From Actinomycetota bacterium (GTDB lineage Bacteria > Actinomycetota > Humimicrobiia > Humimicrobiales > Humimicrobiaceae): a stretch of 6,103 nucleotides of DNA. Below are positions 716-6,103 of this stretch, piece by piece. Every line of letters starts with the position of its first letter. Position 1 is the stretch's first letter. The position numbers were made by a program, and so were the translations under genes. The stretch is from NCBI GenBank assembly GCA_023379515.1, contig JAMCQQ010000246.1:1-6103 (forward strand), read 5' to 3'. The notes under the pieces were generated by a model. It did no database searches and was not told where the DNA came from. It saw only the letters and a program-made list of their open reading frames with translations.

Positions 716-2047
716 TTATATTCCCTGAAGGGAAATCTTATCTCCCATCAAAGAAGCAAATTCTTGTATTCTCTTCTCATAGTTTCCATATACTAAACCC
801 AGATGCTGGGATGAAAATTGATCCATATTATTATCGATCCTGTCTCTTAAGTTAACTGAAATAGCAGGCATTATTTTCTGCCTCAGATTAGATTCTATTC
901 CCTGACCCACAGTATAGAGCAGTTCATAAGAACCTATTTTTTCAGATAATCTCATCATCGTGATTTCTCCGGATTTTAAAATAGCTGAAGCTACTATACC
1001 CTTAAAACCTTTAAAGCTGGTTTCATTGATCTTTAATGATTTAGATAAGGAAAAAGGAGCAAATCCACATGAAGAAAAATATCCATTATTTTCATGATAA
1101 TCCAGAATATCAACATATGTTGGAGTAGTATCAGATAATAAATGCAGAATATGCATACTGACCTGAATAGGAATATCTCCCTCGCAGGCAATCGTGTAAC
1201 CTTCATCAGCTAACATTGACAGCGGTATACAAGCTGAACATCCAAAATCCTTTGTAAGCTCATACTGGCATTTGATATTTATGCCATCCAGATTATATTT
1301 TTTTATGAAGCTTTTCAAACTGCAATATAGACCCGCTGCTTTTTGCAAAATTTCATCGTTTATCTTATGATCTGTAACTTCATTTATTTTTTTTACTGTT
1401 TTTAATATTGCCTCAGTTTTTATATTATTAATCTCTTTAATAATGGAATAGATATCAAAATGTACAATCTCCGGGCCTATAATGGCGCTCATCAACAGAT
1501 GATCAAAAGAAGCAGGATACATGCTCATAGACATATAACCTACAAGGCCAAGTCTGGTTCTTCTTAGGGCTTTTTTTGCAGAAGAAGCAAATATGTAATC
1601 ATTTATTTCTTTTAATATATCCTTATTATCAGGAAATCCTACTACTCTTTTAAAATTAATATCTATTCTTTTTAAGGAACCCTGCAGAGCCAGTATTCCA
1701 ACCAGGGAACCTGACTGCTCTTTGGAACCTTTCCAATCAAACATGGGAAAGCCCCAGATTATTATAGGAAGGTGTTTAAGTTCTTTTATAATCACCAGTG
1801 GTACACTGCATTCTACCCAGGTACTGATAAAAATAATACAACAATCAATGTCTTCACCCGGTATTTTTAAAGCCTGGCTCAGCGCTTCCTTTTCATCCAG
1901 TATTGGCTTTTCCGAACCTATGACTGTATTATGGGATTTCTTCAGAGAATCAATGGCCTCTTTGGCTAACCTGACAGAAACATTATCCATATATTCATAA
2001 TAATCATGATGGGCAATATTGAAAAATCCGATTTTTTTTTCTTTCAT
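716..2047 (-). CDS. L-fucose/L-arabinose isomerase-like protein
   Basis: This 443-residue cytosolic protein resembles the L-fucose/L-arabinose isomerase superfamily, metal-dependent enzymes that interconvert an aldose and a ketose. It is shorter than classical FucI (about 590 residues) and matches the compact, poorly characterised members often found in sugar operons. By eye, the metal ligands are kept: Glu289 in ACEGD, Asp313 in YVDILDYHE, and His415 in SQHLGLVYG. The Glu-Asp spacing of 24 equals that recalled for E. coli FucI (Glu337, Asp361, His528). The N-terminal half is Rossmann-like, with hydrophobic strands such as CCIIFIS and LPIIIWGF. The start overlaps the lacI stop as ATGA and no clear ribosome site precedes it, so translation is probably coupled to lacI. 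The binding-protein gene follows. The substrate is not determined; no kinase or aldolase is visible in the window to narrow it. Confidence 0.82.
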   Translation of the reverse strand: MKEKKIGFFNIAHHDYYEYMDNVSVRLAKEAIDSLKKSHNTVIGSEKPILDEKEALSQALKIPGEDIDCCIIFISTWVECSVPLVIIKELKHLPIIIWGFPMFDWKGSKEQSGSLVGILALQGSLKRIDINFKRVVGFPDNKDILKEINDYIFASSAKKALRRTRLGLVGYMSMSMYPASFDHLLMSAIIGPEIVHFDIYSIIKEINNIKTEAILKTVKKINEVTDHKINDEILQKAAGLYCSLKSFIKKYNLDGINIKCQYELTKDFGCSACIPLSMLADEGYTIACEGDIPIQVSMHILHLLSDTTPTYVDILDYHENNGYFSSCGFAPFSLSKSLKINETSFKGFKGIVASAILKSGEITMMRLSEKIGSYELLYTVGQGIESNLRQKIMPAISVNLRDRIDNNMDQFSSQHLGLVYGNYEKRIQEFASLMGDKISLQGI

Positions 2048-3066
2048 TTTTTATATTTCTTGCTTGAAGATTTTCTGATTATTAATTCGGTCGAAAGTTC
2101 TATTGCTTTTGGTTTGGATTGACTTCCCTGTTCAATTCTTCTGAGCAATTCTTTGGCTGCAATCATTCCAGTGTTATAAACCGGCTGGCTTACTGCGGTA
2201 AGGGGCGGGTCAATATATGGCGCCCATTCAAAATCATCAAAAACAACAATGGCCATATCCTCCGGAACATGAAGATTCTTTTCCCTCAAGGCCTCTAAAA
2301 CACCCAAAACCATCCGGTTGTTAGTGGCAAATATGGCTTCCGGGGGATCAGGATTTTTTAATAATTCATGAGTCAAAGAGGCCGCTTCAATATTGGATAG
2401 ACTGCCTATTTTAATATAATCTTCCCTGATATTAATATTATTATCTTTAAGTGCAGCCAGATACCCGTCCAAACGTTCCTGAAATCCATGATATTTCGCA
2501 TAATGTGCCACTATGGCTATCTTTTTATAACCATTATCAATCAGATGCTGAGTAGCATTTCTTGCACCATTAATGCTATCAACTTTCACCAGACTGAAAT
2601 GTAATTTAGTATAATCTGAAGGATAAACCTCAGTAACCACAAAAGGTATACCTGAGTTAAAGTAAAATTCTGTTTCATTAAAAGTAGCCATATTTGAAAT
2701 TGTGGCAATTATTCCATCTACTCTTTTTTGAGCCAGAATCAGTAAATTTTCTTTTTCAAGCTCTTCGCTATTATCAGAATTGCAAAGGATGAGATTATAA
2801 CCTTTTTTCTTAAAGAAGTCTTCTATTCCTCGGTAAAACTCAGGATAATAAATATTTCTGATATCTGAAATCATTATTCCAATTAAATAAGACCTTTTAC
2901 TTTTTAAGGAGCGGGCCAAAACATTGGGAATAAAGCCAAGTTCACTGATGGCGACTTCTACTCTGCTTTTTAAATCCTGGCTTACAAATGCTGAACTGTT
3001 GATTACTGCAGATACTGTGGCTATGGAAGTCTTTGCTTTTTTTGCAACGTCTCTTATGGTGGCCAT
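2044..3066 (-). CDS. LacI-family transcriptional repressor
   Basis: This is a full-length (340-residue) LacI/GalR-type regulator. Residues 2-23 (TIRDVAKKAKTSIATVSAVIN) form the helix-turn-helix. Residues 47-57 (PNVLARSLKSK) form the hinge, whose Leu in ARSL would enter the minor groove at a central CpG. Residues about 60-330 form the sugar-binding-protein-like effector domain, with IGIMISDIRNIYY at its start, DGIIAT near 118, and AIVVFDDFEWAPYIDPPLTAVSQP near 272. Recognition-helix residue 20 is Ala, where many members have Arg. It heads the operon with the isomerase (4-bp overlap) and binding protein. A near-consensus promoter and tandem CG-centred repeats lie directly upstream, so it probably represses itself and the operon until a sugar binds. 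AGGAAGG 4 bases before the ATG supports the start. Codons 51-61 carry one arm of a 31-bp inverted repeat; because they encode family-conserved residues, this arm is the original copy. Confidence 0.95.
   Translation of the reverse strand: MATIRDVAKKAKTSIATVSAVINSSAFVSQDLKSRVEVAISELGFIPNVLARSLKSKRSYLIGIMISDIRNIYYPEFYRGIEDFFKKKGYNLILCNSDNSEELEKENLLILAQKRVDGIIATISNMATFNETEFYFNSGIPFVVTEVYPSDYTKLHFSLVKVDSINGARNATQHLIDNGYKKIAIVAHYAKYHGFQERLDGYLAALKDNNINIREDYIKIGSLSNIEAASLTHELLKNPDPPEAIFATNNRMVLGVLEALREKNLHVPEDMAIVVFDDFEWAPYIDPPLTAVSQPVYNTGMIAAKELLRRIEQGSQSKPKAIELSTELIIRKSSSKKYKK
2885..2915 (+). repeat. 31-bp inverted repeat, arm A (within lacI)
   Basis: The plus strand here equals the minus strand of 3292-3322 at all 31 positions, and both flanking bases differ. 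This arm encodes lacI residues 51-61 (ARSLKSKRSYL), a conserved hinge segment, so it is the likely source of the second arm. The arms are 376 bp apart. Confidence 0.95.
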
Positions 3067-3070
3067 AAAA

Positions 3071-3077
3071 CCTTCCT
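3071..3077 (-). promoter_or_regulatory. Ribosome binding site of lacI
   Basis: AGGAAGG lies 4 bases before the ATG at 3066. It overlaps the proximal operator-like repeat by two bases, so bound repressor would also cover this segment of DNA. Confidence 0.7.
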
Positions 3078-3099
3078 AAACGGTTAGCTAAACGGTTAG
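3076..3099 (-). promoter_or_regulatory. Tandem operator-like repeats for the LacI-family repressor
   Basis: Two identical, abutting 12-bp units (minus strand CTAACCGTTTAG) occupy 3088-3099 and 3076-3087. Each is a near-palindrome, with CTAA and TTAG arms about a central CG, the hallmark of LacI-family operators; one symmetric pair is mismatched. They start directly after the -10 box and run to the ribosome site, so they cover the expected transcription start near 3093. Binding there would block transcription of lacI, the isomerase and the binding protein. A second reading of the same DNA is one dyad around TTAGCTAA at the junction of the units. The link to this particular repressor is inferred from position and symmetry. 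Confidence 0.8.
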
Positions 3100-3129
3100 A
3101 TTATATCATTTCAAAAAATATGATGTCAA
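3100..3129 (-). promoter_or_regulatory. Sigma70-type promoter of the lacI-isomerase-binding-protein operon
   Basis: The minus strand shows TTGACA (3124-3129), an 18-bp spacer, then TATAAT (3100-3105): both hexamers are exact consensus. The expected start, near 3093, falls inside the operator-like repeats and gives a leader of about 27 bases before lacI. So strong a promoter suggests the operon is held off mainly by repression. Confidence 0.88.
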
Positions 3130-3182
3130 TAGTAAAAAAGAAAGTTTTGCAATTCGAAGGATAAAATATTATTAATTTTGCC

Positions 3183-3299
3183 CTACTGCCATTTATCCAA
3201 AGCAGACGCAAGCTCCCCGTGGTTGGCAGAATATTCTTCCAGGCCCATCCCGGAAATAAATGCCTCAATTGCCTGCCTCAATGCTTTTGCTCCCGCTCC
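3183..3299 (-). pseudogene. Detached C-terminal remnant of the RuBisCO-like protein
   Basis: Reading from 3299 to the TAG at 3183-3185 gives 38 residues: GAGAKALRQAIEAF first and ASALDKWQ last. This matches the C-terminal helix and tail of RuBisCO-like proteins, which follow the GGG phosphate-binding loop. It is in a different frame from the upstream part (3317-4396), and a TAA at 3300-3302 closes its own frame immediately upstream. It has no start codon of its own and no ribosome site. It is the true end of the broken RLP gene. Confidence 0.88.
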
Positions 3300-3322
3300 T
3301 TAAAAAGTAAAAGGTCTTATTT
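3292..3322 (-). repeat. 31-bp inverted repeat, arm B (at the break in the RLP gene)
   Basis: This is the inverted copy of lacI codons 51-61. It spans exactly the point where the RLP loses its frame and supplies the premature TAA at 3317-3319. Its last bases (GGAGCGGG) fit the RLP coding sequence for GAGAK, so short chance homology may have guided the rejoining. Confidence 0.95.
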
Positions 3323-4396
3323 CAGTCTGGGGTGAACTCCGCCTGAAGGTATAGGAAATGTTCTCTTTATATTATGCCACTCAAGTATAAGGTCAAATGC
3401 AATCTGTCTGTACCGCTCATCGAGCAGTCTGTATTTTCCCGATTCTATTGGATAAACAACCATATCGGCTCCGGCAAGACGTGCAAGTTTTCCCAGCACA
3501 AGATGCGACGCCAACCCTCCATAAGGATTTGCATAAAGCACTCCTGAAAAATCAAGGTGAGCAAGTACCGGAACATTTATATCAGGATTTTCAGCAATGC
3601 TCTGCATTGAAGCTATGCCCTGGGTAAGATAATTTATCATTAAAGCATTTGCCCCGGCTTCAACTGCCCTTTTCGCATTATCAAGCAGTTTGTCTGCCCT
3701 GTCTGTTATGTTTACGCAATAAAGAGTCTTCTCACCCTTGAGCTCATAAGCCTTTTTTGCCATTTCCATATAAAGCTTTATCCTTGAAGTCCTATTATTA
3801 TAATCTGTTTCAGACAGCAGCTCGTCATCCTTTATTATATCCACACCGCCCGCTGCAGCATTGTAAAAGAATTTTGCACCAACTTCAGGAGTAAATCCTG
3901 TGCAAGGCTTGATCATATTGTTAAGGAGCGGCCGCTGAGGAACGCCCAGTAATTTTCTTATACCTTCAATTCCGAATTTCGGCCCCTTAAAACCCTCCAG
4001 ATATTTTTTTGGAAATTCAACATCAAGCAGCTTGATTCTGCCCATTACTGAAGTATTGCCTATTATCGTCGTAAGAAGCATTGGTATCTGGCAGCCTATA
4101 TTTACAAGTGGCACTGCGATGCTTATTACATATCTTCGCTCAGAAATATCAGCTGGCAGCTCAAATTCATGGTTTGGCACTTCATTTATTGATATCACTT
4201 TTGCAGCATATTTTTCCCTCATTTCCTCAGTTTCGCCCTCTACAGCGGTCCAGGTTCCTGTTGACATGTCAACAGCCAGCGTTTCCGCAAACTTAATTAT
4301 GTCTGTTTTGGGCTTTTCCTCAATGAAGTATGTTGCAATTATGTAATCTTCCCTGTCAAATCCATCCGGTAAAAAATGGAGTGATCTATTGAACAT
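3317..4396 (-). CDS. RuBisCO-like protein (form IV), truncated at the C-terminus
   Basis: This 359-residue protein has the RuBisCO large-subunit fold: an N-terminal domain with STGTWTAVEGE (45-55) and IIGN (Asn114), then the barrel. The metal site is intact: GGVDIIKDDE gives Lys189 (carbamylated Lys in RuBisCO), Asp191 and Glu192. Lys163 (in IKP), His280, loop-6 Lys321 and SGG (351-353) also match. By eye, RuBisCO Arg295 is replaced by Leu281 and His327 by Val314, so CO2 fixation is unlikely; RLPs instead act as enolases, isomerases or decarboxylases on related sugar phosphates. The family is usually about 400-430 residues. Here the frame stops after GGVHPRLK and the second Gly-rich phosphate loop (GGGIHGHP type) is missing, with the rest found in another frame at 3183-3299. 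It is therefore probably inactive as assembled. GGGAGG 9 bases upstream supports the ATG at 4396. The neighbouring sugar operon hints at carbohydrate catabolism (RLPs act in D-apiose pathways), but the substrate is unknown. Confidence 0.88.
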   Translation of the reverse strand: MFNRSLHFLPDGFDREDYIIATYFIEEKPKTDIIKFAETLAVDMSTGTWTAVEGETEEMREKYAAKVISINEVPNHEFELPADISERRYVISIAVPLVNIGCQIPMLLTTIIGNTSVMGRIKLLDVEFPKKYLEGFKGPKFGIEGIRKLLGVPQRPLLNNMIKPCTGFTPEVGAKFFYNAAAGGVDIIKDDELLSETDYNNRTSRIKLYMEMAKKAYELKGEKTLYCVNITDRADKLLDNAKRAVEAGANALMINYLTQGIASMQSIAENPDINVPVLAHLDFSGVLYANPYGGLASHLVLGKLARLAGADMVVYPIESGKYRLLDERYRQIAFDLILEWHNIKRTFPIPSGGVHPRLK

Positions 4397-4615: not shown

Positions 4616-5695
4616 TCATTTGACGTTGAGCCATTCATCCCATGCAGGTTTGGCAGTTCCATCGATACGGCTGCGCAGGCCCATGCTTCTGAATGGTTCA
4701 AAAGTGTCCTGATCGTACATGAAAGTCCATATAACAAATTCCTTGTTTAAATCACCCATCAGACTGAAAAACACCTCTACAAATTTCGCCTGTTCGGCAT
4801 TACTGCTCTCCCACCCTTCAGGACTGTCATCGCTGTGCCAACCGATTTCTGTGAATGCTATGGGTTTTAATGTATGTAATTTAATTTCAGTATAATAGTC
4901 TGTAGGTATCTCGGAAGGATCTTTATAAATTAATCCGGGATATGTAGTGAAAGCGATAATGTCTGACTTAGAAAATCTATCAAGCAGTGTCCACTGTGCT
5001 TTGGCCGGATCGTTTGTGCCGCCGAACAAACCATCATCAAGACCCTTCATTTTTTCCAACTGGAAGATGGTAAAAACCTTTGTGCCAGGTGATTTTGCCT
5101 TCACAACATTTGATATTTCGCTGTAAAATTGGGTAAAGTTATCAAAGTCTGCCGACGATTTAGCATAGAGCGTGTTCACCTCAATGCCGATGGCAAAATA
5201 TTCCGGTTTGTATTTATCAGCAAAATCAGCAGCGCTGGTTTTGTAAATCTGTTTTGTATTATTGTCAAGCGGCCTTAACATCCTTCCGCTCGATTGCGTA
5301 AAGAATTGAGTTTCTATGATAGGAACATATCCAAATTCAGAGGCAAGAGAAGCGACCACCACAGGACCGCCGCTTTGGGTGTTTGAGAGTTCATACCAGC
5401 CACCTGCCCAACTGACTATCTCACCTGTCTGCTTCACCTTTTCAAAAAAATCGGTGAAATCAGCCGGATTAAAACTTTTTGGTGAGAGACTCACACCTTT
5501 AAGTGCTCTCACCCTGGTTGAAAAACTTTTGTCCGTGACTTCCGGGTATTGCTGTGGTTGAATGGTGTCTTTATTTGATTGTTTATTCACGCATCCGCTA
5601 ACAGCTATAGCTCCGATCAATAGGATTCCGATCAATAAGAATGCCATTATATTTCTGTTTTCAAACTTAATAGCTGATCCTCCCGCAAATTTCAT
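4616..5695 (-). CDS. Glycoside hydrolase-like exported lipoprotein
   Basis: This protein of up to 359 residues has a lipoprotein signal: hydrophobic residues 18-32, then the lipobox VSGC with Cys35. It would be anchored outside the cytoplasmic membrane. The rest reads as a TIM-barrel hydrolase of clan GH-A type, such as GH53 relatives. FAIGIEVN ends in a strand with Glu172 as candidate acid/base, and PIAFTEIGWHS gives Glu283 as candidate nucleophile; their spacing and order fit the clan. KGVSLSP (66-72) would be strand 1 and VIWTFMYD (321-328) strand 8. I cannot name the family or polysaccharide. The start is uncertain: ATG at 5695 has no ribosome site, while GGGAGG at 5679-5684 lies inside the frame, 7 bases before an ATT codon (Ile9) and well before Met17 (5647). 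Starting at Ile9 or Met17 still keeps the signal peptide. It sits alone behind its own candidate promoter; the base composition seems somewhat GC-richer than in lacI, by eye. Confidence 0.72.
   Translation of the reverse strand: MKFAGGSAIKFENRNIMAFLLIGILLIGAIAVSGCVNKQSNKDTIQPQQYPEVTDKSFSTRVRALKGVSLSPKSFNPADFTDFFEKVKQTGEIVSWAGGWYELSNTQSGGPVVVASLASEFGYVPIIETQFFTQSSGRMLRPLDNNTKQIYKTSAADFADKYKPEYFAIGIEVNTLYAKSSADFDNFTQFYSEISNVVKAKSPGTKVFTIFQLEKMKGLDDGLFGGTNDPAKAQWTLLDRFSKSDIIAFTTYPGLIYKDPSEIPTDYYTEIKLHTLKPIAFTEIGWHSDDSPEGWESSNAEQAKFVEVFFSLMGDLNKEFVIWTFMYDQDTFEPFRSMGLRSRIDGTAKPAWDEWLNVK
4618..4628 (+). repeat. 11-bp direct repeat, copy 2
   Basis: This is the second copy of ATTTGACGTTG (see 4511-4521). 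On the minus strand it covers the end of the lipoprotein gene, including most of its stop codon. Confidence 0.35.
5679..5684 (-). promoter_or_regulatory. Strong ribosome site inside the lipoprotein reading frame
   Basis: GGGAGG (within GCGGGAGGATC) lies 15 bases into the longest frame. Seven bases further is ATT at 5669-5671, followed by AAG TTT GAA AAC, a normal charged signal-peptide start. The nearest in-frame ATG, at 5647, is 31 bases away. The motif suggests that translation starts downstream of 5695, possibly at the rare start codon ATT. Confidence 0.5.
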
Positions 5696-5794: not shown

Positions 5795-6103
5795 TTAATA
5801 TCTCATCCTTTTATAAAAAATCTTTTTTGCTATTTCTACAACAATAATATATAAAATTACGATGGCCGCCAGTACCAATATAAAAATAAAAGGTAAAGGT
5901 TTAAAACCAAATATTGTACTTAAGGGCGTATAAGGTAAGGATAGGGTTACTGCTATAATCATAAATGTAGCAATTAAAAGATACTTCCCGGGTTTACTTT
6001 TAAAAATAGGTCTGCGCGTCCTAATGGCCAGAACTATTATGGATGCAGAGATTACTGATTCCAAAAACCAACCGGTCCCGAATTGTTCCGTATTTGCATT
6101 CAT
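5795..6103 (-). CDS. P-type cation-transporting ATPase, C-terminal end (partial)
   Basis: These 102 residues match the C-terminal membrane domain of P-type cation ATPases (Cation_ATPase_C), closest in pattern to Mg2+-type MgtA/MgtB. FGTGWFLESVISASIIVLAI followed by RTRRPIF is the family signature at the M8 region, and YTPL with FGFKPLP matches the loop before the last helix. Hydrophobic segments lie at about 12-27, 41-57 and 70-90, as expected for the last membrane helices, and a basic tail (KKIFYKRMRY) ends the protein. The Met at the window edge is probably internal, because the catalytic phosphorylation and nucleotide-binding domains lie upstream, outside the window. The transported ion cannot be decided from this part; Ca2+ pumps with this domain remain possible. 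The gap of about 100 bases and the candidate promoter that follow suggest the lipoprotein gene is a separate unit. Confidence 0.85.
   Translation of the reverse strand: MNANTEQFGTGWFLESVISASIIVLAIRTRRPIFKSKPGKYLLIATFMIIAVTLSLPYTPLSTIFGFKPLPFIFILVLAAIVILYIIVVEIAKKIFYKRMRY

Follow-up and report, generated by a model that had tools for sequence, protein, structure and literature searches.

How did a gene for a RuBisCO-like protein (RLP) come to be interrupted, at the very point where its reading frame fails, by an exact inverted copy of a piece of the regulator gene beside it? The window, by which we mean the entire 6,103-nt stretch of DNA analysed, carries on its minus strand the RLP gene (4396 down to ~3183), a lacI-family regulator gene (2044..3066), a sugar-isomerase-like gene (716-2047) that adjoins lacI and gives weak matches to Fucose_iso_C and sulfoquinovose isomerase, all below the curated cut-offs, and a partial gene for a sugar-binding protein (649-2). 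At higher coordinates lie an open reading frame of 359 amino acids with a lipoprotein-like start and no match in Pfam or NCBIfam (4616-5695) and the end of a gene for a cation-transporting P-type ATPase (5795-6103), which continues beyond the window. We consider a single fold-back, or template-switch, mutation to be the best explanation for the broken RLP gene and give it a probability of about 0.6; this figure and the gradings of all other explanations are judgements rather than computed values. If real, the locus would offer a natural and clean example, from an uncultured bacterium, of inverted copying across ~0.4 kb in which the donor and both junctions are preserved, and would illustrate how a single event can inactivate a gene and at the same time set a perfect inverted repeat next to a regulator. 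As an artefact, it would exemplify a chimera that mimics a pseudogene in metagenome data.

A repeat search of the window found that positions 2885-2915 (arm A) and 3292-3322 (arm B) are exact reverse complements over 31/31 bases, with 376 nt between them, and the bases flanking the arms differ at both ends, making the match exactly 31 nt long, as the initial annotation had it. Besides the two arms, the window holds no further copy of the 31-mer with up to 3 mismatches. The second-longest exact inverted repeat in the window measures 16 nt and overlaps itself. A chance origin is ruled out by simulation and shuffling: exact inverted repeats in 300 first-order Markov sequences reached at most 22 nt (self-complementary palindromes included), and a search of 200 shuffles for the 31-mer gave zero matches. 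Nor did the 127 loci fetched for comparison (903,626 bases, partly overlapping) contain a comparable short-range inverted copy. Requiring at least 20 nt and a spacer of 50 or longer, we count 8 exact inverted pairs in these loci. The three that reach 25 nt all have spacers above 3000, and only in one pair, 21 nt long, are the copies less than 1000 apart. For the inverted pair in one of these loci (L026), the figure of 322 nt crosses a broken diagonal, an unbroken part measuring 76 nt. Separately, a 53-bp perfect hairpin with a 6-nt loop lies at the extreme end of another contig (L038, 9003-9114) and looks like a contig-end artefact.

The direction of copying can be read from the lacI side. Arm A (2885..2915, minus strand) is native lacI coding sequence, comprising 9 whole codons (RSLKSKRSY) and two bases at each end, and the same peptide is encoded at this place by the LacI orthologues P0121, P0122, and P0123 (95, 92, and 90% identical). 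Arm A is therefore in its native place and lacI is the donor, as had been proposed from the window alone. The donor gene is unharmed, remaining open across its 340 amino acids and resembling its orthologues. At an E-value of 1e-75, lacI relatives were found in 0 of 198 genomes, a result that does not establish their absence, and the best match in four relatives is 41% identical, so that the comparison with relatives is gene by gene. We rejected a mobile element or phage piece as the source of the repeat on the same observation, the native place of one copy in lacI coding sequence; viral_contigs contains no exact match to the 31-mer, and an Rfam scan of the window returned no family at gathering score.

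Arm B (3292..3322) sits in the RLP gene in the opposite orientation, its plus strand corresponding to the lacI coding strand, and divides the gene into a first part (3323..4396, minus strand), open and conserved over codons 1-358, and a last part (3183..3293, minus strand) of 36 codons (GAKALRQ...KWQ) plus a stop, which lies in a different frame. Counted from the Gly codon, arm B and the last part overlap by the GG at 3292-3293. In the RLP reading direction, the arm contributes AAA followed by a TAA stop, so that the insert both shifts the frame and terminates it, and the open reading frame in its present form (3317..4396, minus strand) encodes 359 amino acids and stops within the insert.

What was lost can be measured against relatives, a comparison that the initial annotation had proposed and that we carried out. 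Among genome contigs, the nearest RLP genes are those of L001-L004, four uncultured actinobacteria (77-80% identical). The nearest protein is P0001, an intact metagenome protein of 423 amino acids, 95% identical over the full query; against the NCBIfam model for 2,3-diketo-5-methylthiopentyl-1-phosphate enolase, P0001 scores 384.7 bits, under the cut-off of 409, and for each of the five further families listed it also stays under the cut-off. In agreement with the initial count, 38 nt separate the SGGVH His from the GAKALRQA Gly in the window, and the relatives have 96 there. After PRL, 87 nt (29 codons) have given way to 29 nt of arm B, a net change of -58, in a count that assigns the final GG of the arm to the start of the Gly codon. 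The spacing of 29 codons is found in all four DNA relatives and in 17 of the 18 aligned protein relatives, and the missing segment is present in P0001. The exception, P0022, is an RLP relative of 389 amino acids that leaves the family right after VPK, near the position of the RLP break in the window, and looks like a frameshift. The original estimate of about 30 replaced codons thus becomes exactly 29, and the view of arm B as an inverted insertion accompanied by a local deletion holds against the relatives: judged by all four DNA relatives, the original RLP sequence has been replaced between two clean junctions. A programmed frameshift is ruled out, the 29 codons being absent and the letters in their place derived from lacI. 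The lost stretch carries the conserved GG.IHGHP.G, which aligns without gaps to solved 2,3-diketo-5-methylthiopentyl-1-phosphate enolases, e.g., 2oek, and which we take, from RuBisCO structure, to be the end of the barrel with the phosphate-binding loop. Without this stretch and everything downstream of it, the product of the broken gene should be inactive.

The two junctions probably differ in what they share. At the presumed priming junction (3292..3296, plus strand), inspection suggests a possible microhomology, CCCGC, or GCGGG in the RLP orientation. GG is certain as shared, whereas sharing of all five bases would require GCG as the lost Ala codon. The four DNA relatives use GCA, GCC, GCA, and GCT at this codon, and GCG accounts for 11 of the 105 Ala codons across four genes of the window; since no DNA relative has GCG, five primed bases are not supported. 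At the other junction, where the arm gives AAA, all four DNA relatives and 18 of 18 aligned proteins have Val, and the junction probably shares no bases. The short matching ends are therefore weaker than first described: one junction has 2 certain bases, and 5 only if Ala was GCG, and the other probably has none. The proposal of GGAGCGGG as the matching end has to be withdrawn: it is simply the end of the arm, and RLP and lacI plausibly share GC?GG, of which the final GG alone is certain.

As a plausible mechanism, a break or stalled synthesis in the RLP gene would expose a free 3' end on the plus strand, which leads from lacI into the RLP tail, with the end placed in the Ala-Gly codons ahead of GAKALRQA. 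This end would fold back across a loop of ~376 nt and pair with GCGGG, or at least GG, in lacI (2911-2915), and its extension toward 2885 would copy ~26-29 nt and so generate the inverted copy. Once displaced, the new end would be joined after PRL to the other RLP part, probably without shared bases, and rejoining across the gap would cost the RLP gene 29 codons and leave lacI untouched. We infer the order of these steps and the priming bases. The geometry agrees with the scheme: a fold-back needs its donor on the same strand and behind the presumed 3' end, which is where the lacI segment lies, and a single excursion of a DNA end is expected to leave lacI intact and to give the observed order of RLP, inverted lacI piece, and rest of RLP. 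A point against it is that Ku, which would serve end joining, was found in only one of the four relatives, whose genomes are possibly incomplete. The initial proposal of template switching or single-strand-templated repair thus stands as the best explanation, on matching ends weaker than it had assumed.

Mutations of this kind are already known, and ours would be a long-loop member. Fold-back insertions described at double-strand breaks in yeast are mostly 5-34 bp long, with inverted microhomology priming one end, 0-5 bp shared at the other, and a loop of 41 nt (PMC11724301). Our locus resembles them in that a nearby sequence has been copied, short and inverted, into a junction, with microhomology as the possible primer at one end and few shared bases at the other; the differences are the loop of ~376 nt instead of 41, the bacterial host, the deletion of 29 codons, and the fact that the yeast event was measured whereas ours is known from sequence alone. 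Quasipalindrome mutations in Escherichia coli are attributed to template switching onto the nascent strand (PMC7202029), and there, as proposed here, the switch and return leave an inverted copy. However, the E. coli events described make a pre-existing imperfect inverted repeat more perfect, whereas the relatives of our locus show no pre-existing quasipalindrome beyond a few bases. The four-point template switches surveyed elsewhere (PMC8794818, PMC7954356) likewise have four switch points and replace the original sequence with a reverse-complement copy, but the surveys, as far as their reported scope goes, concern short-range events (the RNA-stem survey capped the source-target distance at 8 bp; PMC8794818), and here source and target are ~0.4 kb apart. 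The length of the loop compared with known cases thus counts against the fold-back.

Also against it is that relaxed constraint after the event is not clear. Before the break, the RLP gene differs from the four relatives mostly at third codon positions (69, 34, and 187 differences from L001 at positions 1, 2, and 3), and the gene was therefore under selection until recently. P0001 differs from the window at 19 of the 358 residues that precede the break and at 7 of the 36 that follow. With 13 outgroups to polarise them, the earlier changes map to the window branch in 6 cases and to P0001 in 5, with 8 unclear, giving no excess on the window branch; those after the break map in 3 and 1 cases, respectively, with 3 unclear, numbers too small to judge. 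Other pairs also vary in the tail: P0001 and P0002 differ at 57 of 358 residues before and 12 of 36 after. We considered whether relaxed constraint proves the pseudogene to be real and older, and rejected this argument; no decay is shown, though the window tail is somewhat more divergent. Because the arms are identical and the RLP gene has no clear decay, the event is either recent or never occurred in a cell.

The latter possibility is the strongest alternative, although we consider it unlikely: an in vitro fold-back during whole-genome amplification or library making would yield the identical sequence and could have entered the consensus through low coverage or overamplification. The lack of clear decay in the RLP gene and the intactness of its closest relative, P0001, fit this origin. 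So do the chimeras reported for multiple displacement amplification, of which 406 of 475 were inverted, mostly joining nearby segments and often primed by short complementary sequences (PMC1855051); like our locus, they show nearby pieces joined in inverted orientation, short complementary bases at the junction, and loss of sequence. However, the chimeras described in that report join two pieces, whereas here the original gene resumes after 31 nt, so that an artefact would need a return to the RLP gene, and its authors give arguments that hairpin self-priming is not a major route (PMC1855051). Moreover, the window lacks any other long inverted copy.

Of the chimeras raised as alternatives at the outset, one of amplification or library origin thus keeps a real, if minor, share of the probability, and a de Bruijn mis-join through a shared 31-mer is weaker than first stated and, in our judgement, highly improbable. 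The match does end sharply at both sides, and 31 is a common k-mer size. However, the piece sits between two RLP parts, and one collapsed 31-mer creates neither of the novel junctions: on both sides arm B is bordered by RLP sequence distinct from the lacI flanks, which demands two more junctions, each with k-mers from reads. Because both new junctions need reads of their own, a k-mer mis-join alone is insufficient, and two independent chimeras would have to merge in the 31-mer.

Marginally less credible still is a 376-bp segment, comprising the RLP tail, the lacI promoter region, and the part of LacI that binds DNA, that flips now or once flipped between the 31-bp repeats; perfect inverted repeats do surround the start of a regulator gene, and the observed order would arise if an inversion that duplicated its ends were later reversed, but this requires more than one step, one repeat is ordinary lacI coding sequence, the RLP gene is broken either way and lacI would be broken in the other orientation, and there is no recombinase among the family-matched genes of the 6.1-kb window (the gene at 4616-5695 being unmatched). 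Returning to the fold-back mutation, an equally slim chance is that this one event itself created the 31-bp repeats around the 376-bp segment, which recombination could now flip, making the locus a newborn switch seen before decay.

Just upstream of lacI, at 3077-3099, we also noted by eye two direct copies of TAAACGGTTAG with starts 12 bases apart, which are possibly the operator of this regulator.
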